A DNA stretch of 64,000 nucleotides from Lachnospiraceae bacterium (GTDB lineage: Bacteria; Bacillota; Clostridia; Lachnospirales; Lachnospiraceae): assembly GCA_017634975.1 (NCBI GenBank), contig JAGBMJ010000103.1, positions 1-64,000 of the forward strand, read 5' to 3'. Below are positions 1,139 to 56,803 of the stretch, piece after piece (position 1 is the first letter of the stretch; each line of letters begins with the position of its first letter). The notes under the pieces are model-generated. The model had not been told where the DNA came from. It made no database searches and was given only the letters and a program-made list of their open reading frames with translations. The position numbers and the translations under genes were made by a program.

Positions 1139-1499
1139 GTTCCAAAGAATTAATCAACAGTTCCGCACTGGCCAGATTGGTCGCCAGCGGAATATTATGC
1201 ATATCACAAAGCCGCATCAGATTGTTCGCATCTACCTCATGAGACATCGGATTCAAAGGATCCCGCAAAAAGATGACCAGGTCGATCTGGTTATGCTCGA
1301 TCTGGATCGCAATCTGTTTTTCGCCGCCCAGGTTTCCGGCCAGAAACTTATGCACCGTCAGATTGGTCACTTCTTCGATCAGACGACCGGTCGTGCCGGT
1401 TGCATACACCTCATGCTTGCTCAGGATCCCGCGATAAGCAATACAGAAATTCTGCATCAGTTTTTTCTTTGCATCATGTGCGATCAAAGCAATATTCAT
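1104..1499 (-). CDS. mgsA: Methylglyoxal synthase-like protein with changed active-site residues
   Basis: 131 residues, full length for methylglyoxal synthase, which converts dihydroxyacetone phosphate to methylglyoxal and phosphate. Family landmarks present: ALIAHDAKKK at the N-terminus, GTTG at 35-38, FLRDPL at 77-82 and the His87/Asp90 pair. However, the usual SGPxGGDQQ loop reads AGNLGGEKQ (54-62). By alignment from memory with E. coli and B. subtilis MgsA, Ala54 replaces the phosphate-binding Ser65 and Glu60 replaces the catalytic Asp71. Activity is therefore doubtful, and it may be a low-activity or repurposed member. A GGGGGTGA ribosome site precedes ATG 1499. It lies between rodA and the carboxypeptidase, an unusual place for a glycolytic-bypass enzyme. 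Confidence 0.8.
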   Translation of the reverse strand: MNIALIAHDAKKKLMQNFCIAYRGILSKHEVYATGTTGRLIEEVTNLTVHKFLAGNLGGEKQIAIQIEHNQIDLVIFLRDPLNPMSHEVDANNLMRLCDMHNIPLATNLASAELLINSLERGELEWREMYK

Positions 1500-1535
1500 A
1501 AAGATTCACCCCCGCGAATAGTGTTTGTATGATTC

Positions 1536-2702
1536 TTAAATATCCACATGCATGTCTTCCTGGATCAGTTCCGTAAAGGATATGGTCCCGCTTGGCCGTG
1601 GCTGCGGCCGGCGCAACCCGACGCTCAGAACAAATCCCATACCAATGTACAGACTCACCAGCGAAGTCAGACCATAGCTGACAAACGGCAGCGGCAAACC
1701 GGTATTCGGCAACAGACCGGTCGTAACACCAATATTGATAAAGCTCTGAAAACAGATGATCGAGCCCATACCGAAGCAAATGATCTTTCCCGCTATATCC
1801 CTGGCTCTCATTCCCACCAGATAACATTCTCCGGCGATCATCATCAAAAGAACGATCGTTGTCGCCGTACCGGCAAACCCCATCTCCTCTCCGATAATGG
1901 CAAAGATAAAGTCTGTCTGTGGTTCCGAAATGTAATTTCCGTTCTTTACGGAACCTACCTCGTTATTGTTTAATCCTTTTCCCCACAGTTTTCCGGATCC
2001 GATCGCCGTGATGGAATTCTGCTGCTGATAGGCCGTCGTCAGTGAATATTTGTCCGGCTGCAGCCACGCCAGGATTCGTTTCTGCTGGTATTCGTTGATC
2101 AGCTGCTGATCCGGCTGAAGGATCAGGAAAAAAACGATCACTGCAACAGGGATAACAGCTGCCAGCGTTCCGAAGATCACCTTATGACTCAGTCCGCCGA
2201 CATAGAGCACCATACAGAAGATCAGGATCACCATGATACTTGTCGACAGATCCGGCTGCTTATAGATCAGCAAAAATACCGGAAAAAACAATAGCACCAT
2301 TTCGATAATGGTCTTAAATGTATTGAGGTTTTCCTTTCGTTTCATTATAAACTGTGCAAAAAAAAGTATCAAGAATATTTTTGCCGACTCGGACGGCTGA
2401 AAACGGATCCCCGCGAGCTCGATCCACCGCTGTGCATTATTGGAGGAATCGCCGAAAAACTTTACCAGAAGCAAAAGCCCGAGATTTCCCAGATAGATCA
2501 GCCAGTACAGTTTCAGTATCACACCATAATCAAACAGGCTGATCACGACCATCAGAAAAATACCGAGTGCAAGTCCCATGATCTGACGGGACTGCACACT
2601 CTCCTTGGCGCTTCCGATCGCCAGAATGCCGATCGTTGAGATGGCCAGCAGATATACGACCAGGCGGAAATTATAATATTTTACGGACAAATTCTGTTTC
2701 AT
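1536..2702 (-). CDS. rodA: Rod-shape SEDS peptidoglycan polymerase RodA
   Basis: 388-residue polytopic membrane protein of the SEDS (FtsW/RodA/SpoVE) family. It polymerises lipid II into glycan strands together with a class B PBP. Family signatures seen: NAQRWIELAGIRFQPSESAK, QPDLSTS, EPQTDFIFAIIGEEMGF (holding the conserved Asp of the extracellular loop) and GLLPNTGLPLPFVSYG near the C-terminus. About ten hydrophobic segments are readable. It starts three bases after the PBP2 gene stop, so the two partners are translationally close. RodA rather than FtsW is preferred because of the mreBCD-PBP2 neighbourhood. Confidence 0.93.
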   Translation of the reverse strand: MKQNLSVKYYNFRLVVYLLAISTIGILAIGSAKESVQSRQIMGLALGIFLMVVISLFDYGVILKLYWLIYLGNLGLLLLVKFFGDSSNNAQRWIELAGIRFQPSESAKIFLILFFAQFIMKRKENLNTFKTIIEMVLLFFPVFLLIYKQPDLSTSIMVILIFCMVLYVGGLSHKVIFGTLAAVIPVAVIVFFLILQPDQQLINEYQQKRILAWLQPDKYSLTTAYQQQNSITAIGSGKLWGKGLNNNEVGSVKNGNYISEPQTDFIFAIIGEEMGFAGTATTIVLLMMIAGECYLVGMRARDIAGKIICFGMGSIICFQSFINIGVTTGLLPNTGLPLPFVSYGLTSLVSLYIGMGFVLSVGLRRPQPRPSGTISFTELIQEDMHVDI

Positions 2703-43697: not shown

Positions 43698-44903
43698 TTA
43701 TGCCTCTAAAGTCTTACGGATCTCTTTGATGAATTCCTGACTGTTGAGCACTTTTACATCCTTCAGGGAGGTGATCAGTGCCAGGTCCTTGGTCATCCGA
43801 CCGGACTCTATGGTGTCCAGAGTTGCTTTTTCAAGGCGGTCCGCAAAGTTACACAGTTCCGGTGTACCATCCAGTTCGCCGCGCTTTCTTAACGCCCCGC
43901 TCCAAGCAAAGATCGTAGCTACGGAATTGGTTGATGTTTCTTCTCCGGCCAGATGCTTGTAATAATGACGCTGTACCGTTCCATGTGCTGCTTCGTATTC
44001 GTACACGCCGGAAGGTGACACCAAAACCGAAGTCATCATTGCCAGAGAACCGAATGCCGAGCTGACCATATCGCTCATCACATCACCGTCATAGTTCTTG
44101 CATGCCCAGATGAATCCGCCCTTTGCCTTCATCACACGTGCTACAGCATCATCGATCAGCGTATAGAAATAAGTGATCCCGGCTTCTTCAAATTTTGCCT
44201 TATATTCGTTATCAAAGATCTCCTGGAAAATATCTTTGAAGTTATGGTCATACTTTTTGGAGATCGTATCCTTAGTGGCAAACCACAGATCCTGCTTAAC
44301 ATCCAGCGCATAATTAAAACATGAACGTGCAAAGCTCTGAATGGACTTATCCGTATTATGGATGCCCTGCAGAATACCGGAGCCCTTGAAATCCTGGATC
44401 AGTTCTTTCTGAACGCTGCCATCTTCCCCTTCAAATACCAGATATCCTTTGCCGGCTCCCGGTACCTTGATCTCTACATTTTTGTATACATCACCGTAAG
44501 CGTGTCTTGCCAGAGTAATGGGCTTTTCCCAATTCCGCACACAGGGTTCAATCCCTTTTACCATGATCGGAGCACGAAACACGGTACCATCCAGAAGCGA
44601 ACGGATCGTGCCGTTCGGACTCTTCCACATTTCTTTCAGATCATATTCTTTTACACGTGCAGCATTCGGAGTGATCGTTGCACATTTAACGGCAACTCCG
44701 TATTTTTTGGTAGCCTCTGCGGAATCGATGGTTACCTGATCATCCGTCTCGTTTCTGTGCTTTAAGCCCAGATCATAGTATTCGGTCTTCAGATCGATGA
44801 ACGGAAGAAGCAGTTCCTCCTTGATCATCGCCCAGAGGATACGCGTCATTTCATCTCCATCCATCTCTACCAACGGTGTTTTCATTACAATCTTCTCAGC
44901 CAC
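43698..44903 (-). CDS. icd: NADP-dependent isocitrate dehydrogenase, eukaryotic type
   Basis: 401 residues from a GTG at 44903, chosen because AAAGGAG lies nine bases upstream and the protein then begins close to the family-typical [16 protein letters not shown]. It oxidises isocitrate to 2-oxoglutarate. The phosphate/isocitrate motif [19 protein letters not shown] and Arg/Tyr residues of the large type (homodimeric, about 400-410 residues) mark it as the IDH1/2-like subfamily rather than E. coli Icd. Only 36 bases separate it from the end of a secreted LRR protein gene, so it may be read from the surface-protein transcript. Confidence 0.94.
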
Positions 44904-44939
44904 AACTTTATTCTCCTTTATCATTTTTTATACATTTTA

Positions 44940-46535
44940 TCACTCAAATACGCCGTCCGCCACATGTTTTACACCGGCCGGCAGAGCCGGTTGATCCTCG
45001 TCTCCTTTATATCCGATCAATACTCCGTCCCCGACGATCAGGAAATCCGATGCATCGGCATTGTTTTCCCAGGCCTGATACCACGGCGTATAGTTGAAGG
45101 CATTCTTTCCGATCGCAGTCACCGTAGACGGGATACTCACTTCACTCAGACTGTCGCAATGGTAAAAAGCGCCTTCCCCGATATAGGTCAGTCCCCCCGG
45201 CAGATCCGCTCTGGTTATGCCGCTTCTTGCAAAAGCAAAATCCCCGATCATCTTTAGCGTATCCGGGAACGTATACTGCGTCAGGGTCAGATCCAGATAA
45301 TGGGCATGATCAGAGATCAGTTTTCCTTCATCCGTATTCGGCTGCGTTTCGGCAGAAGGTGATGCGGAAACCGTTGGCGATGACTGTGAAGCATCAACCA
45401 CGTTGAAGTTATCCACCATGATATAGGCACGATCCGATACCACCGGTGCATTACCGAGAACCACACCGTCATAAGTCACACGAAGGCCGTCATGCTGCTC
45501 TCCGTTTGCTTCCGATACGATTGCAGTATTCGCTCCCGTATCGATGCCATAAATACTTTCGTCCGTATAAGCAGCTGCTTCACCACCGTCCTGCGCCGCC
45601 TCATATGCAGCACGCCGTACATCTTCAAGATCTTCTTCGATCCGTATGGTATAAACCGGAGTCTCACTGGTCAGATACTCATGTTCTTCCGCAAATTCCG
45701 CCGCTTTGCCCGTCGTGCTGCATACCAAATGCAGATCTGCCGGGCATCCGTCAAACGCAGATTCATGGATCTCCCGTACACTTTCCGGTACGATTGCCTG
45801 CACCAGATTGCCGCAGCCGGAAAAAGCCTTCAAACCGATTCGGTTCGTCGGGATCTGCATCGTCACACTCATCAGTCCTTTACAGTTGGCAAACGCATAT
45901 TCCGTAATCTCCGGGATGCCGGGAATGGTGACCACCTGCAGACCATCACACCCCCAAAAGGCATTCGGACAGATTTCCGTTACGGTTCCGGGTACCGTAT
46001 AAGCTCCGGACGGACTTCCCGCACAATATTGATACAGTTTGGTCATACCGGCATTATACAGGGCATGTCCGTTTGCAATCAGATTCTGATTGGTACTGCT
46101 CACATAGACAGCAGACAGTGAATCACAGTCCCCGAATACACCGTTTCCCATCTCGCGGACACCGGATCCTATGCTTACGCTGCGCAGCGAAGAACAGCCC
46201 ATAAAGGCAGCATCTTCCAATACTTCTACCGAATCCGGGATCGTAACGGAAGATAGCTTAGTACATCCTTCAAAAGCCCCGGTACCGATGTTCTCCACGG
46301 TAGAGGGAATTGCCACCTGCTCCAAAAACGGATTCTCACGAAACGCGTCATCATGGATTTCCTTCACCCCGTTAGGAATGACAACGGAAGTATCGGTCCC
46401 GTTATAAGTATACAGGATCCCGTTCACCGTATTAAAATCCGCTGCGGAAGATGCCTGCGCAAGATAGATCCCGCCGATCGCAAGTGTCAACCCTGCCGCA
46501 GCGGCAGGCAGCAGTAAAAGTTTTACTTTTTTCAT
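44940..46535 (-). CDS. Secreted BspA-like leucine-rich-repeat protein
   Basis: 531 residues. A signal peptide (MKKVKLLLLPAAAAGLTLAIGG, cleavage near residue 30) leads into at least seven LRR_5/BspA repeats (about 40-265) of the form IPxxVxxIGxxAFxGCxxLxxV, a Glu/Ala-rich linker and a Ser/Thr/Pro stretch (about 265-400), and three further repeats (400-531). The protein stops inside a repeat (VKHVADGVFE) and has no sorting signal, so it would be released or non-covalently held. A strong AAAGGAGG is nine bases before ATG 46535. It follows the giant LRR gene by 53 bases. Likely surface or adhesion function by family; partner unknown. Confidence 0.85.
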   Translation of the reverse strand: MKKVKLLLLPAAAAGLTLAIGGIYLAQASSAADFNTVNGILYTYNGTDTSVVIPNGVKEIHDDAFRENPFLEQVAIPSTVENIGTGAFEGCTKLSSVTIPDSVEVLEDAAFMGCSSLRSVSIGSGVREMGNGVFGDCDSLSAVYVSSTNQNLIANGHALYNAGMTKLYQYCAGSPSGAYTVPGTVTEICPNAFWGCDGLQVVTIPGIPEITEYAFANCKGLMSVTMQIPTNRIGLKAFSGCGNLVQAIVPESVREIHESAFDGCPADLHLVCSTTGKAAEFAEEHEYLTSETPVYTIRIEEDLEDVRRAAYEAAQDGGEAAAYTDESIYGIDTGANTAIVSEANGEQHDGLRVTYDGVVLGNAPVVSDRAYIMVDNFNVVDASQSSPTVSASPSAETQPNTDEGKLISDHAHYLDLTLTQYTFPDTLKMIGDFAFARSGITRADLPGGLTYIGEGAFYHCDSLSEVSIPSTVTAIGKNAFNYTPWYQAWENNADASDFLIVGDGVLIGYKGDEDQPALPAGVKHVADGVFE

Positions 46536-46588: not shown

Positions 46589-49500
46589 CTACTTCACAAC
46601 CTTCTTCTTATCCTTCCAAAGGAACAGAACGCATGACAGCGACAGCATTCCGGCAGATAAAAACCACTTCGGCGCAATACCGTCACCGGTCTTTGGTGTG
46701 ATATCCGATACACCCCGCACCATATTCTGCGTATCCACATAAATGGTATACGGCGAGAAATGGGTCGCGGTAAAACGCATACAAGGCACCCCGTCGATCG
46801 TGGTATATTGTACTCCCAGCGGTTCCACGGAGCCGCCTGCGATAGCCGCTGCTTTATTATTTCCGGCATACGGAACCAGCTGATCCGGGATCGGCAGGGT
46901 TATGGTCACCGCCAGATTGTTGGCATTCGTTACCAGTCTCGTACCGGTCGAATCATACAACGAGATATCAAACGCAACATACTTCAGGTCGGAGAAACGG
47001 TCACCGTAAGCATTACGCAGCGCCTGTTCCACCGCGGCTGTTGCTGCAGCAGAATCCGTTACCTTGACTACAAAATTATCGGTAGAACCGGCAACGGATG
47101 CGGTACCGAGATTCTTTTTGTTGTTATCAATGGTTTCGGAGGTAATGCGTACTTCCGTTCCGCTGTTGTCTGCGGCCGGCTGCGTCTTATTTGCATTATT
47201 TCCGGATGCACTGTTGTTATTGTTACTGTTATTACTGTTATTGTTATTATTATTGTTGTTACCGTTTCCGTTCGGCGTCGGTGTTGCTGTAGCATTTGCA
47301 GCATTTGCCGATGCTGTAGGTGTGGCATTTGCACTCTTGTAGGTTGCTGTTACCTTTACGTCATGCGTCGGCATAATAAAGGTCGTTGCAACCGCATATG
47401 CATTGCTGAAACCGATATCCGCATTAGAAGTCGTCCAGCGGTCAAACACTTTACCTTCCGTAGCTGCATAAGCTGTGATCGTCACCACTTCACCGGGTTT
47501 ATGTCTTCCGGTTCCGGCGCCATTCTCTACCGTCACGAGATACCCTGCTTCATTAGACGAAGCGGAATTTCTTGATACCGTCGGTGTCGGTGTGGATGTC
47601 GGTGTCCCGGTTGCAGACGATTGGTGCTTATATTCCAAATACTCCCAGACCGCCACAGCAATCACGTTTTCGGATACAGCAGAACCGACATTATAACTCG
47701 TCGGATGGAAAGACCATTTATCAAAACTGTAACCCGAATTCGGATGTCTTCCGGAATCCTTCGGTTGGCCGGGATCATAGATCGGACCGCCATCCGGAAC
47801 CGTATATTCCATAAAGATCGTATCATCATCGTTATAGAACGTCACGGAATGGAATCCGTCCGGTATCTTAGAGGAAGAATATGCAGCCACACCAATGATA
47901 CCATCCTGTGTCACACGATCTGTGATCTTAAACGAGGACGGGCTGAATTTCCAGCCCAGGTACTGATTTCCGGGATTCAGTTTCGATTCCGGAATTTCCA
48001 GTGCAGGAAGATATCCGTTCTTTTCTACCGAAATTTCCTTATACAGCGTCATATCATCATAGTAAAACTTCACTGTATAAACATCTACGGAATACTTGGC
48101 TGTCGCAACAATATCCTGCTTTACCGCCATAGATTCATCAAAGGATTCCGGCTGGAAGGTCCATCCGACAAAAGCATACCCCGGATTGTTCTTGGAAGTG
48201 ACCCCGGTCGGCGGCTGTATATACGATCCTTCGTATACGGTATCCTCGCGTATGATACTGCCATCATCATTCTTGAACGTTACCGTATACGATGGTGTAT
48301 CAGCCTTCACATAAAAAGCGGTAAACTCACGGTCTTCCGTGACGTTTGTGATCAGATCGTTTCCTTCTACATCTTCATGGCCGATCCACACCCAGCGACT
48401 GAAAGAATATCCATCATGCTCCGGATAAAGCTTCGGTGTAGGATTTTCCGGCGGAAACTCACCGCGTCCGCTGGTCTCATTTTCATTCAGATAGATCTTG
48501 TATTCGTATACAACAGAATTATCATCGTTGCGGAAGACCATAGTATAAACGGTACCGATCTCTTCAAAATACAGATTATCGGTCGTAGAACGATTCGCCT
48601 TCTTCTCCGGTGTGGAATTTCGATAGCCACGCAGCGTCACGCGTGCTGCATCCGGATCAAATGCTTTATCGGAAATATCCATACTTCCGGTATTCGGGAT
48701 CTGGATGGTCACATTCGATGCACTGTTATCAAAAGCTTCATTTTCGATGGAATCCACAGTTTCCGGAAGCTTTATGGTACTTGCCAGACGACAGTGATCA
48801 AATGCCCTTTCCGGGATCGTCCGGATCGTTGTTTTGTTCATATCAAAGCTCGGAACGTATTCACATCCGCAGAATGCTTCCTCGTTCAGTTCACTGACAT
48901 CTTCTCCCAGTTCGATCGGGTTCTTTACCGTCGGCAGACAGCTCAGAACCTTCCTGCTACCGTTATCCAGGTTCTGATACAGGATTCCCGTCGAATTATC
49001 ATAGGTATACTTTGAATTCGGATCCTCAATGGTAACGCCTCCGGGCTGCAGGGACGAACACCCCTGGAATACATTCTTACCGATGTTCTGGCAGTTGCCG
49101 TTCAAGATCACGCTCTGCAGGTTTTCGCAGCTGTCAAATGCATAATCCGGCAGTTTGGTCACGCCGGGCATCCGGATGGACTGGATCCAGTCGTTTCCCT
49201 TGACGTTATCAGGGTTCGTTACTTTCAATCCATTCACACGCCCGGAAACGGAAGGCATAAAGTTGTCCTTATTTTCTTCCATTTCACCGGAAAAGATACC
49301 GGCATGATATCCGCCGATATGATGCTCCTGTCCGCTTGGATAAGAAACATTGTCCACGCTGTATATTTTTTCTCTTGTGGTTCCTCCCGTGTTCAGAGCA
49401 TCCGCAAAATATACCAGATTCATCTCATTATTCCGGTCATTGATAAAAGCTTTGGTATCAATGGAAGTGATCTGGCTTGGTAATACAAGATATATGGAAG

Positions 49501-52297
49501 CGTCACGGATCTTCTGCTCTTTATCAGTCAGACTGCTTCCGTCTCTGAGTTTTTGATTGATCTGTGCCAGTTCATTGTCATAAGAATCATTGATATGCGG
49601 ATAATCGATCAGGGTCACCGCTTTGCTGCCGTTATCATACAGCATACACAGACCGCCCGAAAAATCGCCGGACGAATTTTCAAAATCCGAAACATAGCAG
49701 ATCCGTGTATTATTATTATTAATATAATTTGTATCCATTGCGTAGGCATAAGGATAAAAGCCATCCGATACATTGCCATGGAAATAGAGTTTCTGTCCTC
49801 CGGTCATGAACGCATCCGATTTGATATTATTGATTGCGGATTCCATTCCCCAATAGACATGCTCGAGATTGTCGCTATTGCGAAATGCGCCTTCCCCGAT
49901 GCTCTGAATGCCTTTTCCCATGGTTACGGTTTCCAGTGCCGCAGCGTTCGTGAAGGCAGCATCACCGATCTCCAGCAGGGAATCGTTAACCTTGAAATTT
50001 TTAATATGATTCAATAAGTTATTTTCAAAACAGTTTGCCCCGAGATTGGTAAGCTTATACGTACCGATCTGATCCGGCAGCATAAAAGGATCGTCCAGGC
50101 TGCGTCCCAGTTCCTTGTTCTCATCTCCCGGGAAATAGATACAGTTATACAGTGTCGCCTGTCCGCCCGCCGGACGGTCTGCGATGATGTCACAGATATA
50201 TCTGCAATCGGTTCCTGCATTCACATCACCGGTTTCCTGCCCTACCTCATAATGTCTGGTCACGTTACCGCTGCTGTCTTTGACTTCATAGCAATACGGG
50301 ATATATGCGCTAGTATCATTCGGAACCGCTGTCCATGTGCAATAGCGCGGTCGCGCGTAATGTGCTCCGGGTTCAATCGTCACTTCATTTGCGTCCATCG
50401 GTCCCCATACGCAAAAATCCGTATTGGCTACATCTCGGAAAGCTTTATAATCATAAGCAACAAATTTATTCGGTCCGAAATCAACTTTTTCCATTCCGGA
50501 GCAGCCCATAAAAGTATTGTACGGCAGCCACTGCCATTTGCTCTTGTCATCGGCCGGTGTATAACCGGTTCCAAAATCTTTAAAGGTAACATTTTTCAAT
50601 CCGGTACGATTTGCAAGAACATAATCCCCCATAATGGATTCATAGTTTCCGTACTCATCATCCAAACGGTATTCAAAGGAATAATTCGATGCCTTTGACG
50701 CATCGGAAGGACTGACATATTCCATTGTCATGATCGGGAAGGTAAACTCTTCCAGTGTCTGATTGCCGGAAGGCAGAGCAAAAGCTGCTGTCCCCATAGC
50801 TACGGAAGCATCTGAGGGAAAGTTCACTCCGGAAAGCTTCAATGTATCATAAAAGGCGTATTCGCCGATCGTAACATTAAGACCATCGTTCTTGGAAAAA
50901 TCAACTGTCGACAGACTCGTACAATCTGCAAAAGAACCAAAAGCAAGCTGTGTCAGGGATGCAGGGAATTTTGCTCCCACATCGCCCCCGCCGCTGATCT
51001 CAGACTTTTCTCCGATCGCGCGTAACGCAGAACAGCCCTGAAATGCTTCCTTACCGACACCGGAAACATTCTTCGAAAGATATACGGTTTCCAGATCATC
51101 ACACCCCTGAAAAACACGATTGCCGATCTCTTTGATACCACTCAGATCGATGATCTCGATATCACTGTTCTGGAACCCCTGATTCCCGAGATAGATGATC
51201 CTATCGTCAATGATCACCTCCGGACACGACAATCCCTTGAATGCATCATCCGCGATCGCATCGATCTTTTTCCAGGAATTTGAAGCAATACAAAAATCAT
51301 TCGCATCTACCGGATCACTCCAGTTTCCTTCCACATGCTGATAAATATAAAGCTCCCGATCCGTATCCGGATACTGCTCGGAACCGCTTTTGTTCGTAGT
51401 GCCGTTTAGTACTTTACGTACCGCACAGCCGCTGTGATTGTTGATATCACTGAAAAAACGCGAAATACTCTCATCATCCTTTATCTGAGTAGTACCATCT
51501 TCTGTAGATTTAAGATAATTTTGCAGCAGTGTAAATTTATAGTCCTTATGATCGATCTCCGCACCGGAAGCATCCAGTCTATAGGAATCCACATATCCGT
51601 CATCTTTTGCCGGGAGCTCAAAATAACGGTTTTTCATATTTTCAACAAAATCCTCATAATCGGTAACATCCGGCCCGTCATATTTCTGAGCTATCACCTG
51701 CGTGACTTTTAAAGGCGAATTTACAGCTCCCTGATTGTAAGAACTGATGACACTGTGTGCACCGGCATCATAACTTTCAAACTGGGAATCCAGCATATAT
51801 CCTGCGCCGCTTTCATAAATGCAAAAAGACCATTCTTTCCCGGAATGTACAGAAGCATCATAGGTCAGGAAATCCTTTCCGGACAGCTCCACATCATCAT
51901 TCCGCGAATCCGCAGAAGCTCCGCTGTAATCCATGGAATTGGACGGTGCCCAGCTCGGATCCAATGCCTTAGCCACGCCGGATTTGTCCCCCGGAATAGC
52001 TGCGATGATCAGCGAGCTTACCAGGCAGACCCCCGCTATGCTTTTGCGAACGGTCTGTTTCATTTTGGAGGTCATTTTCTTCTTTTCGGAACCGGTCACA
52101 GTTTTTGCAGCTTTTGAGGAGGTTGACGCAGATGCCGTGCTTTTAGAAGACGCAGTTTTACCGCCAGCCGTGGCACTTGCCACCGATGCTGACGCAGTTT
52201 TTCCGGAAGCACCGGTGCTTCTCGAAGCCGCTGCCCTTTTATGTGCCTCCGCGATCCTTCTTTTCTGCTCTTCGGTCAGTCTTCTGTTATCTGCCAT
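46589..52297 (-). CDS. Giant LRR / InlB-repeat surface protein with TPKTG sorting signal
   Basis: 1902 residues. A long basic Ala/Ser/Lys-rich N-terminal region (1-85) precedes a hydrophobic export segment (about 88-106). BspA-type LRR blocks follow at roughly 345-520, 750-830 and 1040-1220. Then come four InlB/Flg_new-like beta repeats of about 70 residues, each starting like VTFKNDDGS and containing a GYxFxGW core (about 1240-1530), a divergent InlB repeat with FDRWTTSNADIGFSN (about 1565-1630), and an Asn-run linker. A globular domain leads to the tail TPKTG (1867-1871), a hydrophobic helix and KDKKK, a wall-sorting signal. GAGGGAGG precedes ATG 52297. A class B sortase gene lies 42 bases upstream. 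Adhesin or surface-binding role by family. Confidence 0.88.
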   Translation of the reverse strand: MADNRRLTEEQKRRIAEAHKRAAASRSTGASGKTASASVASATAGGKTASSKSTASASTSSKAAKTVTGSEKKKMTSKMKQTVRKSIAGVCLVSSLIIAAIPGDKSGVAKALDPSWAPSNSMDYSGASADSRNDDVELSGKDFLTYDASVHSGKEWSFCIYESGAGYMLDSQFESYDAGAHSVISSYNQGAVNSPLKVTQVIAQKYDGPDVTDYEDFVENMKNRYFELPAKDDGYVDSYRLDASGAEIDHKDYKFTLLQNYLKSTEDGTTQIKDDESISRFFSDINNHSGCAVRKVLNGTTNKSGSEQYPDTDRELYIYQHVEGNWSDPVDANDFCIASNSWKKIDAIADDAFKGLSCPEVIIDDRIIYLGNQGFQNSDIEIIDLSGIKEIGNRVFQGCDDLETVYLSKNVSGVGKEAFQGCSALRAIGEKSEISGGGDVGAKFPASLTQLAFGSFADCTSLSTVDFSKNDGLNVTIGEYAFYDTLKLSGVNFPSDASVAMGTAAFALPSGNQTLEEFTFPIMTMEYVSPSDASKASNYSFEYRLDDEYGNYESIMGDYVLANRTGLKNVTFKDFGTGYTPADDKSKWQWLPYNTFMGCSGMEKVDFGPNKFVAYDYKAFRDVANTDFCVWGPMDANEVTIEPGAHYARPRYCTWTAVPNDTSAYIPYCYEVKDSSGNVTRHYEVGQETGDVNAGTDCRYICDIIADRPAGGQATLYNCIYFPGDENKELGRSLDDPFMLPDQIGTYKLTNLGANCFENNLLNHIKNFKVNDSLLEIGDAAFTNAAALETVTMGKGIQSIGEGAFRNSDNLEHVYWGMESAINNIKSDAFMTGGQKLYFHGNVSDGFYPYAYAMDTNYINNNNTRICYVSDFENSSGDFSGGLCMLYDNGSKAVTLIDYPHINDSYDNELAQINQKLRDGSSLTDKEQKIRDASIYLVLPSQITSIDTKAFINDRNNEMNLVYFADALNTGGTTREKIYSVDNVSYPSGQEHHIGGYHAGIFSGEMEENKDNFMPSVSGRVNGLKVTNPDNVKGNDWIQSIRMPGVTKLPDYAFDSCENLQSVILNGNCQNIGKNVFQGCSSLQPGGVTIEDPNSKYTYDNSTGILYQNLDNGSRKVLSCLPTVKNPIELGEDVSELNEEAFCGCEYVPSFDMNKTTIRTIPERAFDHCRLASTIKLPETVDSIENEAFDNSASNVTIQIPNTGSMDISDKAFDPDAARVTLRGYRNSTPEKKANRSTTDNLYFEEIGTVYTMVFRNDDNSVVYEYKIYLNENETSGRGEFPPENPTPKLYPEHDGYSFSRWVWIGHEDVEGNDLITNVTEDREFTAFYVKADTPSYTVTFKNDDGSIIREDTVYEGSYIQPPTGVTSKNNPGYAFVGWTFQPESFDESMAVKQDIVATAKYSVDVYTVKFYYDDMTLYKEISVEKNGYLPALEIPESKLNPGNQYLGWKFSPSSFKITDRVTQDGIIGVAAYSSSKIPDGFHSVTFYNDDDTIFMEYTVPDGGPIYDPGQPKDSGRHPNSGYSFDKWSFHPTSYNVGSAVSENVIAVAVWEYLEYKHQSSATGTPTSTPTPTVSRNSASSNEAGYLVTVENGAGTGRHKPGEVVTITAYAATEGKVFDRWTTSNADIGFSNAYAVATTFIMPTHDVKVTATYKSANATPTASANAANATATPTPNGNGNNNNNNNNSNNSNNNNSASGNNANKTQPAADNSGTEVRITSETIDNNKKNLGTASVAGSTDNFVVKVTDSAAATAAVEQALRNAYGDRFSDLKYVAFDISLYDSTGTRLVTNANNLAVTITLPIPDQLVPYAGNNKAAAIAGGSVEPLGVQYTTIDGVPCMRFTATHFSPYTIYVDTQNMVRGVSDITPKTGDGIAPKWFLSAGMLSLSCVLFLWKDKKKVVK
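47212..47262. repeat. Trinucleotide tract encoding an Asn/Ser run
   Basis: About 17 codons of AAC/AAT/AGT (read on the minus strand) make a nearly pure Asn-Ser spacer in the giant LRR protein. The tract is in-frame, so slippage would change spacer length without breaking the frame. It lies between the InlB-like repeats and the C-terminal domain. Confidence 0.8.
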
Positions 52298-52339
52298 AGG
52301 ATTCTTCCTCCCTCATCCCGCACGAAACTGGGATGCTTT

Positions 52340-53278
52340 TTACCTGATCTTTTTCGCTACGACTACAAACCGCCCGTTCTGCTCCTGATAATCACAGGTC
52401 GATAAAGTCAGCAGCTTATCACCGTATACTGCCGTTACTCCGGTATCATAAAACGATTCCCTTGCCATCTCACGCATATAGGAATTAAACTCTTCCTCGG
52501 ATTGCGCGTCGATGAACTGGTAATACTTAAAGCGCACTTCATCCGCGTCGTAAACACGCGAACGGAAGGCATACATCACCTGGTATGTGCCTTCCTCATA
52601 GATCGTATCAAACTGGATATACGGGTGTTTCTCATAATAGCGCTCCGACTCATACTCGCCCAGCTTCGAAAACATCCTGCCGCTGGTCAGGTGATGCCCG
52701 TAAATGATGTAATTATCATTGCCACGGACAATGTCGCAGTTGCAATCCAAAAACAATGCTCCCGCTTTTTCTTCCTTCCGGTCAAAGTTGTGTGTAAGGT
52801 AATAGCTGTTATCTTCTGCCTGCATGACCGGATAATCAATTATTGTATCGTCAATTTTTACCCATCCGATTAGGTCTTTGTTCAAATTATAGAGAGTTTT
52901 ATACTTATCCAGTATCTCATACGTCACTTCATTGCCGTTGCTGTCGGTCAATGTGGCAACATAGGCATCCTCCTCATGCATCCCCACCAGCTTATCCGAG
53001 CCGACCAGATGGGACAGATCCTGTCCGCGAGCATCCCCGCGTCCGGCCGTCAGATAATAGAGTGCATAATAGCCAAACCCTCCCACCGCCAAAAGAACAA
53101 AAGCGAAGATAACCAGTTTGCGCCGTTTCTCCGCTTTTTTCATCTCATGCAGGATCAGTTTGCGCATCTCCGGATCATAATCTTCCAGACGCTTGGGCTC
53201 CTTCGGTGTTTCCTCCGGAGCCTTCTGCTTTGAAACTTCGCTTCGTCTGCGATCTTTCGATCCCTCAGAGCTGCCCAT
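52340..53278 (-). CDS. Class B sortase
   Basis: 312-residue membrane-anchored cysteine transpeptidase that attaches surface proteins to the wall or cross-bridge. A long charged cytoplasmic N-terminus (1-53) and one membrane helix (about 54-75) lead to the sortase fold, with NKDLIGWVKIDDTIIDYPV, catalytic His195 in IIYGHH, Cys295 in TLSTC and Arg303 in GRFVVVAKK. These are sortase B-type features. The gene starts three bases after leuS, with only a weak AAGGG site. The giant LRR protein encoded next, with its TPKTG tail, is the obvious substrate (inferred from adjacency). Confidence 0.92.
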   Translation of the reverse strand: MGSSEGSKDRRRSEVSKQKAPEETPKEPKRLEDYDPEMRKLILHEMKKAEKRRKLVIFAFVLLAVGGFGYYALYYLTAGRGDARGQDLSHLVGSDKLVGMHEEDAYVATLTDSNGNEVTYEILDKYKTLYNLNKDLIGWVKIDDTIIDYPVMQAEDNSYYLTHNFDRKEEKAGALFLDCNCDIVRGNDNYIIYGHHLTSGRMFSKLGEYESERYYEKHPYIQFDTIYEEGTYQVMYAFRSRVYDADEVRFKYYQFIDAQSEEEFNSYMREMARESFYDTGVTAVYGDKLLTLSTCDYQEQNGRFVVVAKKIR

Positions 53279-53281
53279 ATC

Positions 53282-55723
53282 TTAGCCCTTCACAACAATA
53301 TTTACGATCTTGCCCGGTACATAGATCTCTTTTACGATCGTGCCGGAGAGCTTATCTCCCAATGCTTCCTTACCGGCAGCGATCGCGCTGTCCTTGTCTG
53401 CATTCTTATCGATCGTGATCGTGGCCTTAACCTTGCCGTTGATCTGTACGGCGATCTCCACTTCAGACTCGTGCATCTTGGAAGCATCCGCTACCGGCCA
53501 CTTCGCATTGAATACGCTGTCAGTGTGGCCCAGCTCCTGCCAAAGTTCTTCCGCAATGTGCGGTGCAAACGGAGCCAGCAGGATCACGGCATCTTCCAGT
53601 GTCTGCTTATCCACGCCACCGTTCTTAGTCAGATCCACCAGTTTGTTGTTATACTCCATAAAGCCGGAGATCACGGTATTTAAGCTGAATGCATTCAGGC
53701 GGTGATCGATATCATAGATCATCTTGTTGCGGATACGCTCCAGTTCCGGTGTCACCGCTACATTCTTATCCTTATTCTCCTGTACCATGGTCCAGAAACG
53801 TGCCAGGAAACGGTATACGCCGTCGATACCTCTCGGATCCCACTCGCTGTCCAGTTCAGGCGGACCTACAAAGAGCTCGTACATACGCAGGGAATCGCAG
53901 CCGTAATCCATCACCAGTTCATCCGGAGAAACCACATTGCCCTGAGACTTGCTCATCTTAACCGGCTTATCGCCCCACTTCTCGGTATCCGCCGCCTTCT
54001 TCAGGATCATACCCTGATTAAACAGGCGGGTGAACGGCTCATCAAAGTCTACCACACCGATATCCTTCAGGAACTTGGTGTAGAAACGGGAATACAGCAG
54101 ATGCAGTACGGCATGCTCCACACCGCCGACATACATATCGACCGGCAGATACTTATCTGCTTTTTCCCGGCTGACCAGTTCGTTATCATTATGATTATCC
54201 ACATAACGCAGGAAGTACCAGGAAGAACCTGCCCACTGCGGCATGGTATTGGTCTCTCTCTTGGCCGGCTTGCCGCACTTCGGACAAGTCGTATTTACCC
54301 AGCTGTCGATGGCCGCCAGCGGAGATTCACCGGTGCCAGTCGGTTCGTACTTCTCAACATCCGGCAAAAGCAGCGGCAGCTCCTCTTCCGGAACCGGCAC
54401 GCAGCCGCAGTCCGGGCAGTGCACGATAGGGATCGGCTCGCCCCAGTAACGCTGACGGGAGAATACCCAGTCACGCAGCTTATAGTTCGTGGTCTTCTTA
54501 CCGAAGCCCATCTTCTCGATCATCATCGGCGCTTCCTTCTTAAGCACCGCCGATTCCATACCGTTCCAGTCACCGGAATTGATCATGGTGCCGCTGGCCT
54601 CGGTATAAGCTTCCTCCATATTCTCGATCTCTTTGCCGTCTTTTGCGATGACCTGGAGGATCGGCAGATCAAACTTCTTCGCAAAAGCGAAGTCACGGTC
54701 ATCGTGCGCGGGAACACACATGATCGCGCCGGTACCGTAATCCGCCAGTACATAGTCCGACAGCCAGATGGGTACCTTTGCCCCGTTCAGCGGATTGATC
54801 GCATAGGATCCGGTAAATACGCCGGTCTTTTCCTTGTCCTGCATACGATCTACATTGGATCTCGTCGATGCCTTATAGATATAATCGTCTACCGCCGCTT
54901 TGTTCTCTGCCGTAGCCAGACCGGCTGCCAGCTTGTGCTCCGGAGCCAGTACCATAAAGGTCGCACCATACAGGGTATCCGGGCGTGTGGTGTAAACGGT
55001 GATCGTATCGTCTCTGCCGTCGATCTTGAAGTTTACTTCCGCACCATAGGAACGGCCGATCCACTCAGTCTGCATCTTCTTTACTTTTTCCGGCCATTCC
55101 AGCTTGTCCAGATCGTCCAGCAGACGATCCGCATAAGCCGTGATCTTTAGCATCCACTGCTTTAAGTTTTTCTTGGTCACTTCGGTATGGCAGCGCTCGC
55201 ACTTGCCGTCTACCACTTCCTCATTTGCCAGACCGGTCTTGCAGGAAGGGCACCAGTTGATCGGCATCTCCTTCTCATATGCCAGACCTTTCTTGAACAT
55301 CTGGACAAAGATCCACTGCGTCCACTTATAAAACTTCGGATCCGTGGTATTTACCTCGCGATCCCAGTCATAGACCGCGGCGATCTGCCCCAGCTGGCGC
55401 TTGATATTTGCTACGTTCTGTGCCGTGGATACCGACGGGTGCACACCGTTCTTGATCGCATAGTTTTCTGCCGGCAGGCCGAATGCATCCCAGCCCATGG
55501 GATGGATCAGATAATAGCCGTTCAGCATTTTATAGCGGCTCCATACATCCGAAATCACGTAGCCTCTCCAGTGTCCGACGTGCAGGCCGGATCCGGACGG
55601 ATACGGGAACATATCCAGACAGTAATACTTCGGTTTCTTACCGTCATCCACGTTCACCGGATGCTCATTCCAGTATTTTGTCCACTTTTCTTCGATCTCA
55701 CGATGATTATACGGTACTGCCAT
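53282..55723 (-). CDS. leuS: Leucyl-tRNA synthetase
   Basis: 813 residues, normal for bacterial LeuRS. Class I motifs: HVGH at 48-51 (HIGH) and KMSKSQGNV in the second half. The CP1 editing domain is present (TRPDTLYGATF, DYGTGAIMCVPAHDDRDFAFA), and the zinc-ribbon insertions CPSCKTG and CPKCGKP are intact. Only 43 bases separate it from the CAP-domain gene, too short for a T-box leader. The sortase gene follows after three bases, so sortase expression may follow leuS. Confidence 0.97.
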   Translation of the reverse strand: MAVPYNHREIEEKWTKYWNEHPVNVDDGKKPKYYCLDMFPYPSGSGLHVGHWRGYVISDVWSRYKMLNGYYLIHPMGWDAFGLPAENYAIKNGVHPSVSTAQNVANIKRQLGQIAAVYDWDREVNTTDPKFYKWTQWIFVQMFKKGLAYEKEMPINWCPSCKTGLANEEVVDGKCERCHTEVTKKNLKQWMLKITAYADRLLDDLDKLEWPEKVKKMQTEWIGRSYGAEVNFKIDGRDDTITVYTTRPDTLYGATFMVLAPEHKLAAGLATAENKAAVDDYIYKASTRSNVDRMQDKEKTGVFTGSYAINPLNGAKVPIWLSDYVLADYGTGAIMCVPAHDDRDFAFAKKFDLPILQVIAKDGKEIENMEEAYTEASGTMINSGDWNGMESAVLKKEAPMMIEKMGFGKKTTNYKLRDWVFSRQRYWGEPIPIVHCPDCGCVPVPEEELPLLLPDVEKYEPTGTGESPLAAIDSWVNTTCPKCGKPAKRETNTMPQWAGSSWYFLRYVDNHNDNELVSREKADKYLPVDMYVGGVEHAVLHLLYSRFYTKFLKDIGVVDFDEPFTRLFNQGMILKKAADTEKWGDKPVKMSKSQGNVVSPDELVMDYGCDSLRMYELFVGPPELDSEWDPRGIDGVYRFLARFWTMVQENKDKNVAVTPELERIRNKMIYDIDHRLNAFSLNTVISGFMEYNNKLVDLTKNGGVDKQTLEDAVILLAPFAPHIAEELWQELGHTDSVFNAKWPVADASKMHESEVEIAVQINGKVKATITIDKNADKDSAIAAGKEALGDKLSGTIVKEIYVPGKIVNIVVKG

Positions 55724-55766: not shown

Positions 55767-56723
55767 TCATTTATTCTGGTTCAGACGCTGCTGGCGCGCT
55801 CTCTTCTCTTCTTCGATCCGTTTTTCTTCCGGGGTCTGATAGCGCTCACGCAGATAATTGGCATCTTCGGAAGTGGTGCCTTCCTTGCATACATTGGTTC
55901 CGTCACAGAATTCCACAACCCAGTAATGCACACCGTTTCTCTCGGAATGTCCGACACCCATCAGAGTCCAGTCGGAATACAGTACGACATTGCACAGATC
56001 CTGTCCCGGCTTGCTCCACTCTTCAATAACTTCTGCCACCGAGCCGGTATAGCTCTTGTAACGCAGCTCGCGGAAATAATGCCGGGGTACATTATAATCC
56101 TCCAGAACACTGTCGCCGTTACGTCCGTCCGGGCGGATACGGTTATATCTCCGCAGCATCTCATCCGCTCTTACCTGAGATGCTTCGAGGATCGGCATAG
56201 TATTCTCCAGCGCCTTTTTGCCGTTCGCCAGACGATACTTGTTGATTGCCGCATGCAGATCCCAGCGCAGCTGGTCATCCATATTCTTGCCTGCCGGTGT
56301 ATTGCTGTTCGAAGCCGGTGCGCTTGTCTGCGGCTTCGGAGCCTGTGCCACAGCACTGCGCCCTTCCGCCTTGCCGCCGTTCATATAGTGCATATAGTAC
56401 TGTTTCAGATCATCTCCAAAGGCTGCCTGCAGATCCGCATAGTTTGCCTTGTATGCCTGTACATCAAACTCGGCATTTCCCTGGCGTCCTTCCGCCATAC
56501 CGCAGTTTAGAAAATGTGCAAACAAAGCATCTTCATCGTTGCCACACGCTGCCGCAACATCCGGATACCTGGTCGCATAATATGCCGCATCAAAGATCAC
56601 TGCATACTCTGCCGGCACTTCAGCCGATACGCAAAGCGGCTGCAGATTCGTAAAGATCGCACCTGTCAGCACAGCCGTCGCCAGCACCCTTCCGATCCCG
56701 TTTCTCAAGCCTTTTTTGACCAT
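55767..56723 (-). CDS. Exported CAP-domain (SCP/PR-1-like) protein with YPDV repeats
   Basis: 318 residues. A signal peptide (about 1-34, ending near VSA) is followed by two repeats of about 39 residues (44-122) with the pattern FDxxxYxxxYxDxxxAxGxDxxxxxxHYxxxGxxEGR, and a CAP domain (about 155-285) containing INKYRLANGKKAL, RADEM and VGHSERNGVHYWVVEFCD. Functions of bacterial CAP proteins are mostly unknown (wall-associated, often sporulation- or envelope-linked). AAGGAGG lies ten bases before ATG 56723 and a consensus promoter is just upstream, so it is a separately, probably strongly expressed gene. Confidence 0.85.
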   Translation of the reverse strand: MVKKGLRNGIGRVLATAVLTGAIFTNLQPLCVSAEVPAEYAVIFDAAYYATRYPDVAAACGNDEDALFAHFLNCGMAEGRQGNAEFDVQAYKANYADLQAAFGDDLKQYYMHYMNGGKAEGRSAVAQAPKPQTSAPASNSNTPAGKNMDDQLRWDLHAAINKYRLANGKKALENTMPILEASQVRADEMLRRYNRIRPDGRNGDSVLEDYNVPRHYFRELRYKSYTGSVAEVIEEWSKPGQDLCNVVLYSDWTLMGVGHSERNGVHYWVVEFCDGTNVCKEGTTSEDANYLRERYQTPEEKRIEEEKRARQQRLNQNK

Positions 56724-56773: not shown

Positions 56774-56803
56774 ATTATACAGATGCTGTCCGTTCATTGT
56801 CAA
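56774..56803 (-). promoter_or_regulatory. Consensus sigma-A promoter of the CAP-domain gene
   Basis: TTGACA (56798-56803), 18 bases, TATAAT (56774-56779), all on the minus strand: both hexamers are perfect matches. The predicted start is near 56767, leaving a 44-base leader with AAGGAGG. The -35 box lies three bases from the stop of the upstream membrane-protein gene. Confidence 0.85.

Follow-up and report, generated by a model that had tools for sequence, protein, structure and literature searches.

Which substrate a sortase serves is usually guessed from the five residues of a sorting signal. A locus in a gut bacterium of the Lachnospiraceae (assembly GCA_017634975.1, contig JAGBMJ010000103.1) raises the question of whether more can be read from the genes themselves, as a sortase gene (srtB) lies there beside a gene (lrrA) for a giant exported protein with leucine-rich repeats (LRR). 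The window, meaning the whole stretch of DNA analysed (64,000 nt, positions 1 to 64,000 of the contig), had been read in an original prediction as holding a two-gene, self-contained pair of enzyme and substrate with a non-standard motif. Comparison across genomes supports the dedicated pairing of SrtB with LrrA well, and the locus is probably a self-contained surface-display operon of Lachnospiraceae, in which a class B sortase comes with its own LRR substrates. The srtB/lrrA pair of the prediction stands, but the system was drawn incompletely, as a third gene, lrrB, had been overlooked. The open reading frames (ORFs) confirm that sortase and exported protein lie on one strand, 42 bases apart, and the locus reads as follows.

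52340..53278, minus strand: srtB, class B sortase of 312 amino acids, 3 bases after leuS
46589..52297, minus strand: lrrA, exported BspA-LRR/InlB-repeat protein of 1902 amino acids with a sorting signal
44940..46535, minus strand: lrrB, second secreted BspA-LRR protein, 531 amino acids, without an anchor here
53282..55723, minus strand: leuS, context gene upstream of srtB
43698..44924, minus strand: icd-like gene, context, directly downstream of lrrB

By ORF coordinates, the genes are spaced on the minus strand by 3 (leuS to srtB), 42 (srtB to lrrA), 53 (lrrA to lrrB) and 15 bases (lrrB to the icd-like gene). The names leuS and icd-like are those we presume from the translations. Ribosome sites precede lrrB (AAGGAGG) and the ATG of lrrA (GGGAGG-like).

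SrtB is a class B sortase, as had been predicted. It scores 159.3 bits against the class B model TIGR03064 (cut-off 153.75), and a profile of 40 SrtB relatives matched 15 distinct PDB sequences at E ≤ 0.001, of which 12 are named sortase B or C60B and three otherwise (1rz2, 5jcv and 3psq). The nearest solved structures by this profile are 2oqw (167 bits) and 1rz2, titled BA4783, whereas the SrtB of Clostridioides difficile (4ux7, 101 bits) is among the weaker class B matches. The proposed catalytic residues His195, Cys295 and Arg303 are present and invariant across 40 aligned sortase domains (alignment columns 83, 183 and 191); in 20 full-length SrtB relatives they are invariant together with Thr294, which precedes the cysteine. 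Many SrtB relatives (e.g., L045, L033 and L161) have a cytosolic N-terminal part with a G..F.....DY-like pattern ahead of the membrane helix; it matches no Pfam family over cut-off, and the SrtB of the window is shorter there.

The neighbouring protein is the BspA-LRR/InlB chimera that had been described. LrrA matches LRR_5 (203.6 bits) and the divergent InlB repeat family Flg_new_2 (37.5 bits, cut-off 23.6), and the Pfam search returned LRR_5, LRR_8 and Flg_new_2 only, with no pilin or Cna-B domain. Its C-terminal end (...TPKTGDGIAPKWFLSAGMLSLSCVLFLWKDKKKVVK) carries TPKTG, a hydrophobic helix and KDKKK, and scores 17.0 against the NCBIfam model LPXTG_anchor (cut-off 15.9); with motif, helix, basic tail and export signal, LrrA has all the parts of an LPXTG-type surface protein. 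The parts of LrrA are as follows.

52043..52297, minus strand: residues 1–85, basic extension N-terminal to the export helix, restricted to a few lineages
51950..52078, minus strand: residues 74–116, conserved export signal of the [IV]R[KR]..(G/A)......(V)AAIP type
51242..51982, minus strand: residues 106–352, divergent N-terminal domain (AlphaFold pLDDT 76.6, pTM 0.76)
47330..47536, minus strand: residues 1588–1656, divergent InlB B-repeat (Flg_new_2)
46721..47215, minus strand: residues 1695–1859, wall-proximal domain (AlphaFold pLDDT 84)
46748..46762, minus strand: residues 1846–1850, HFSPY, in the turn that joins the final two strands of the wall-proximal domain
46592..46705, minus strand: extended sorting signal from Asp1865, D-I-TPKTG-DGIA-PKW-FL, followed by a hydrophobic helix and KDKKK

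The sorting signal is longer than a pentapeptide. It reads D-x-[TSN]-P-x-T-[GA] and is followed by PKW at the membrane border. Among 60 complete LrrA tails of named relatives (L036, which ends in unknown residues, was excluded), the Asp at P6 and the PKW are each found in 60/60, Asp at P2' in 56, and Lys at the X position in 54.

Linkage of the two genes was assessed from an SrtB scan of 84,980 species' genomes, which gave 292 relatives, the best 80 of which were kept as loci. A start of lrrA follows srtB directly in 76 of the 80, and 75 of the 76 listed lrrA neighbours match a profile of the LrrA export signal; L082 adds a start of 127 residues. After 59 of 61 complete lrrA genes, a second long ORF begins on the same strand within 300 bases, and in the rows shown BLAST labels it a relative of LrrB. 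Taking the longest ORF as the gene start, the median gaps are 22 bases between srtB and lrrA (76 loci) and 12 bases between lrrA and lrrB (59). Of the 80 loci, 32 have leuS upstream in the same orientation; 4 kb or more of upstream sequence is available in 56. This shared chromosomal place suggests that the cassette has been inherited vertically since long ago, with losses. Among named records, the nearest are metagenome-assembled genomes of Lachnospiraceae from sheep, roe deer and other ruminants.

Co-occurrence, a check put forward with the original prediction, was examined in 200 Lachnospiraceae genomes drawn evenly from the family, nearly one per genus. The sortase profile separates 25 genomes (295–373 bits) from the next-best match (270.7 bits), and 24 genomes reach 55 bits or more with the tail profile, with 11 others matching it weakly (33 bits or less). 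All 24 genomes with a strong tail lie within the 25 with the sortase clade (Fisher p = 3.9e-30, taking the genomes as independent although they are related); in the 25th, G137, the contig ends inside lrrA, 24 bases after srtB. Within the 25, the two genes lie within about 0.25 kb of each other in 15 and within 0.7–2.7 kb in four (G135, G041, G193 and G190), while in three the start of lrrA is at a contig edge (G137, G147 and G045), which makes 22 with linked genes, contig-edge cases included; the linkage in G060 is ambiguous. Among 382 genomes of the class, a strong tail was found in three only, all of them Lachnospiraceae. A tree built from 129 class B sortase domains places the 98 of the SrtB group in a single clade (support 0.959); the remaining 31 domains are a chance selection of other class B sortases.

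The genome that carries the window was searched as well for tails and sortases. The tail profile matches LrrA alone, even at E ≤ 10, and LrrA is likewise the sole strong match of the export-signal profile. In the strong-tail genomes of the survey, further tail matches (E ≤ 0.001) adjoin lrrA and belong to LrrB; the single exception, in G196, is encoded next to a different class B sortase. Two proteins exceed the Pfam sortase cut-off, namely SrtB and one on contig C99 that likewise resembles the class B profile (216 bits). Together with the co-occurrence, the linkage and the single sortase clade, the lone tail protein supports the view that SrtB and LrrA are dedicated to each other.

The C99 sortase (1492–2409, minus strand; L002) has a counterpart in G004 (contig C14, 6693–7571, minus strand; L173). 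Next to both lies an ORF that we take to be of the AraC type, and no sorting-signal protein was noticed alongside either. The Pfam model Gram_pos_anchor (PF00746) gave 11 matches at E ≤ 10 in the genome, of which one is over cut-off and none is the LrrA tail, and because it misses this tail it cannot serve as a survey of substrates. The one protein that passes is rich in repeats, carries a VPKTG signal and is cut by the end of contig C116 (L003/L160); it adjoins a protein 36% identical to the CAP-like protein encoded at 55767–56723 of the window.

How far the signal is particular to this sortase clade can be judged from the tails beside other class B sortases. Of the 22 class B sortases next in rank, 20 were looked at, and none of these adjoins a tail with PKW; three of them (L205, L214 and L215) adjoin TP[KQ]TGD signals that lack it. 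As the Asp residues at P6 and P2' are also found beside these three, only the PKW part of the signal is specific to the clade. Six more class B sortases (L161–L166), found via weak tail matches, pair with tails that carry NPVFF, DPKFM or DPRY(F/L). The pentapeptide region is therefore common, and it is the stretch after it that varies with the sortase clade. The L161–L166 sortases are remoter ones. Each has as its neighbour a protein whose tail is of the TPKTG or KTAD type, and by BLAST five of these six proteins are similar to LrrB; from these sequences, the combination of a sortase with an LRR protein seems to recur within Lachnospiraceae. Another ten of the 20 next-best sortases (L200, L201, L204, L206 and L208–L213) adjoin one and the same ORF of 776–777 residues, presumably of a conjugative element by its look, and no sorting-signal protein was detected beside them.

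The view that TPKTG is a non-standard motif for a class B sortase does not hold. SrtB of C. difficile is reported to cut (S/P)PXTG between T and G (PMC4155245), and wall attachment via SPKTG has been demonstrated in that species (PMC5569036). SrtB of Bacillus anthracis acts on D-NPKTG-DE and is described as requiring the Asp at P5 and P2' (PMC11987632), and TPKTG substrates beside a second sortase had earlier been proposed in C. difficile (PMC6814731). The classical NPQTN-type target model TIGR03063 (srtB_target) matched one of 38 tails, at E 0.091. This is not a defining feature of class B, because C. difficile uses (S/P)PXTG.

Searches of the open-licence PubMed Central (PMC) literature found no paper on this sortase‒LRR cassette, and several described systems come near it. 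An accessory class B sortase with its own substrate is already known from the abpA-srtB locus of oral streptococci, which likewise combines a class B sortase, a conserved locus, one dedicated adhesin and an unusual signal (PMC4974636). There the sortase is reported to be required for wall display of AbpA. AbpA is described as small, with an LPKTS-AVK signal that lacks a hydrophobic helix, and its gene precedes that of the sortase (PMC4974636); LrrA is a giant LRR/InlB substrate with a full tripartite signal plus PKW. Neither the short LPKTxSAVK signal nor the sortase subfamily model NF040525 (55.2 bits for SrtB, cut-off 200) places the locus with abpA-srtB. The C. difficile SrtB system shares the enzyme class, xPKTG-D signals, the helix and the basic tail, but there one sortase serves several scattered substrates, and one tail printed in those reports is without PKW (PMC4155245, PMC5569036). 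B. anthracis SrtB, to which the nearest solved structures belong by profile, also needs residues beyond the pentapeptide, and the authors of that study suspect that the membrane helix of the enzyme touches that of its substrate; B. anthracis SrtB is described as serving haem-uptake proteins (PMC11987632). By comparison with its signal, the Asp here is at P6, Thr or Ser replaces Asn at P4, and PKW is added. In the C. difficile element 023_CTn2, a second sortase has similarly been proposed for neighbouring I/TPKTG proteins, but the element is conjugative and the substrates are of the collagen-binding type (PMC6814731), as opposed to a chromosomal place and LRR substrates here. The matches to the HupY/LrrG adhesin model NF047961 (LrrB 71.6 bits, LrrA 36.5 bits; cut-off 1250) are far below cut-off and reflect shared BspA-type repeats only. 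What is new is the pairing with a giant LRR substrate and the extended, clade-specific signal.

The second LRR protein, LrrB, has LRRs by Pfam and lacks an anchor at this locus. A [TS]P[DN]TG signal is found in 34 of 57 complete LrrB relatives, with Asp at X in 33 and Asn in one, and 29 of these 34 signals have PKW. LrrB relatives of about 900 amino acids carry such signals. The other 23, the kind seen at this locus, have no signal. The LrrB proteins of L061, L074, L078 and L089 are about 720 residues long and have a C-terminal hydrophobic helix without a TPDTG signal; perhaps they are retained in the membrane rather than bound to the wall.

Building on gene order, conservation, co-occurrence, the sortase clade and the signal anatomy, all of which are seen directly, a pathway can be proposed. 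LrrA would be exported by Sec via its conserved N-terminal helix, and its C-terminal helix and basic tail would hold it in the membrane, as in other members of the sorting-signal family. SrtB would then recognise the extended signal D-x-[TS]PxTG-D ... PKWFL, cut LrrA between Thr and Gly and join it to peptidoglycan. This would leave the LRR/InlB rod outside the cell, where, to judge by its domain type, it may be adhesin-like. LrrB would be the second product, probably anchored by the same SrtB in the many relatives with the sister signal [TS]PDTG ... PKW; in the lineage of the window, its anchor end appears to have been lost and the protein is probably secreted. The Asp-flanked signal and the PKW at the membrane border would fit the needs described for B. 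anthracis SrtB (PMC11987632).

Several observations weigh against this reading. No lrrA start can be seen in four of the 80 loci: in L032 a different exported protein takes its place, L057 and L083 have another ORF near a contig end, and L062 is at a contig end. In G147 the tail found is that of LrrB, and the contig breaks off in the start of lrrA. In G079 and G128 the two genes are unlinked, so that the outcome named beforehand as contrary to a pair, the genes occurring apart, was seen in part (2/25), yet both genes are present in each. PKW is not universal, since G045 has TKW and G079 LKW, and the shared Asp residues noted above belong to other class B sortases too. The second class B sortase on C99 may also act in the same cell. 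Finally, the profiles were trained on sortase-adjacent proteins, and some test genomes overlap the training loci (G004 is L023, at 100%, and G137 looks like L082); the co-occurrence is therefore strong but not wholly independent evidence.

Three other explanations were weighed. SrtB might be a polymerase or ligase that links LrrB to LrrA, or LrrA to LrrA, in a pilus-like or two-part structure. Two substrates with sister signals beside one sortase would suit this, and the consistent split at X (Lys in 54/60 LrrA, Asp in 33/34 signal-bearing LrrB) could set an order of assembly; moreover, Streptococcus parasanguinis SrtB is reported to build AbpA ladders in vitro (PMC4974636), and a class B sortase is reported to take part in pilus assembly in S. 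pyogenes (PMC3019223). The many LrrB proteins without a signal (23/57, that of the own locus included), the absence from the LrrA Pfam results of the pilin or Cna-B domains of class B pili, and the lack of an identifiable acceptor lysine make such a role unlikely. It is a shade more improbable that SrtB is a general class B sortase that merely adjoins one of many substrates. The single SrtB of C. difficile does serve several scattered (S/P)PXTG proteins (PMC4155245), and as Gram_pos_anchor is blind to the LrrA tail, it may overlook further sorting signals of the genome; against this stand the single tail match of the own genome at E ≤ 10, the position of the extra matches (E ≤ 0.001) beside lrrA in the 24 strong-tail genomes, bar the one in G196, and the co-occurrence of tail and sortase clade. 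That the genes are chance neighbours, or an artefact of a mixed bin, would be suggested by the state of the assembly (4.36 Mb in 147 contigs, contamination 7.46%), but it is contradicted by the 76 of 80 loci with the same order, in independent assemblies that include the isolates L022 and L023, and is hardly credible. The reading of the locus as a display operon with dedicated LRR substrates is the one retained.

The original prediction had also remarked on the long basic N-terminus of LrrA as unusual. It is real but confined to a few lineages. The stretch of roughly 85 residues that leads up to the export helix is probably translated, because a ribosome site precedes it and synonymous changes exceed amino-acid changes in the first 25 lrrA codons against all four close relatives compared (12:4, 5:4, 10:8 and 7:4). 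Most LrrA relatives start 11–42 residues ahead of the conserved arginine-lysine motif; extensions of about 60–90 residues are found in L014–L017 and, with a differing sequence, in L020–L024. The long N-terminus is a lineage feature that stands outside the core design. The export-signal profile also matches 29 of the 57 complete LrrB, weakly (12–26 bits), and hence is not strictly private to LrrA. No NCBIfam signal model, of the YSIRK type or another curated kind, matched LrrA at E ≤ 0.1.

The wall-proximal domain (residues ~1715–1859) is among the best conserved parts of LrrA, and in a scan of 48 sequences it matched no Pfam family over cut-off; AlphaFold models it with confidence (pLDDT 84). 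Remoter copies occur in 37 of the 57 complete LrrB. The domain, HFSPY included, is also seen in L190, L191 and L197, which are proteins of another family that end in repeats we take to be SLH-like; by sequence, an anchor of another type would there follow the same domain. Of 62 LrrA rows, 61 have HFSPY and one is gapped; in the AlphaFold model the motif sits in a tight turn before the last strand. The LrrB copies are often without the Ser. A structure comparison with self-cleaving folds gave weak support. Offsets from the VIA-align ranges, assuming no gaps near the end, put the HFS serine on rat NLRP1 969, CD97 531 and BAI2 912, which we take to be the cleavage serines of those proteins. PIDD is reported to self-cleave at HF/S (PMC3210808), which the HFS of LrrA calls to mind. 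A beta-sandwich with HF|S or HL|S/T in the turn ahead of its final strand marks the ZU5/FIIND/GAIN domains. ZU5 (PF00791) and GPS (PF01825) had no match on contig C58 of the own genome at E ≤ 10. That the domain is a bacterial counterpart of the ZU5/FIIND/GAIN self-cleaving domains, cut at the invariant HFS, is a speculative and rather improbable idea. If it were true, the cut chain would stay joined non-covalently, with its short piece fixed to the wall by the sortase, and a pull on the giant LRR rod could shed the rod or pass on a force signal.

Upstream of the CAP-like gene (55767–56723), a perfect TTGACA-18-TATAAT promoter-like site is found at 56774–56803 of the window, minus strand. Over the whole scan, such sites were not more numerous than in shuffles. 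The CAP-like gene could be co-transcribed with leuS, srtB, lrrA, lrrB and icd.

The locus offers one sortase clade with one extended tail, naturally replicated across genomes. This makes it a clean case for asking whether class B sortases read the stretch between the pentapeptide and the membrane helix, as has recently been suggested by work on B. anthracis SrtB (PMC11987632). For the annotation of gut and rumen Lachnospiraceae, it also provides a name for a group of giant LRR proteins and for a highly conserved but unannotated wall-proximal domain.

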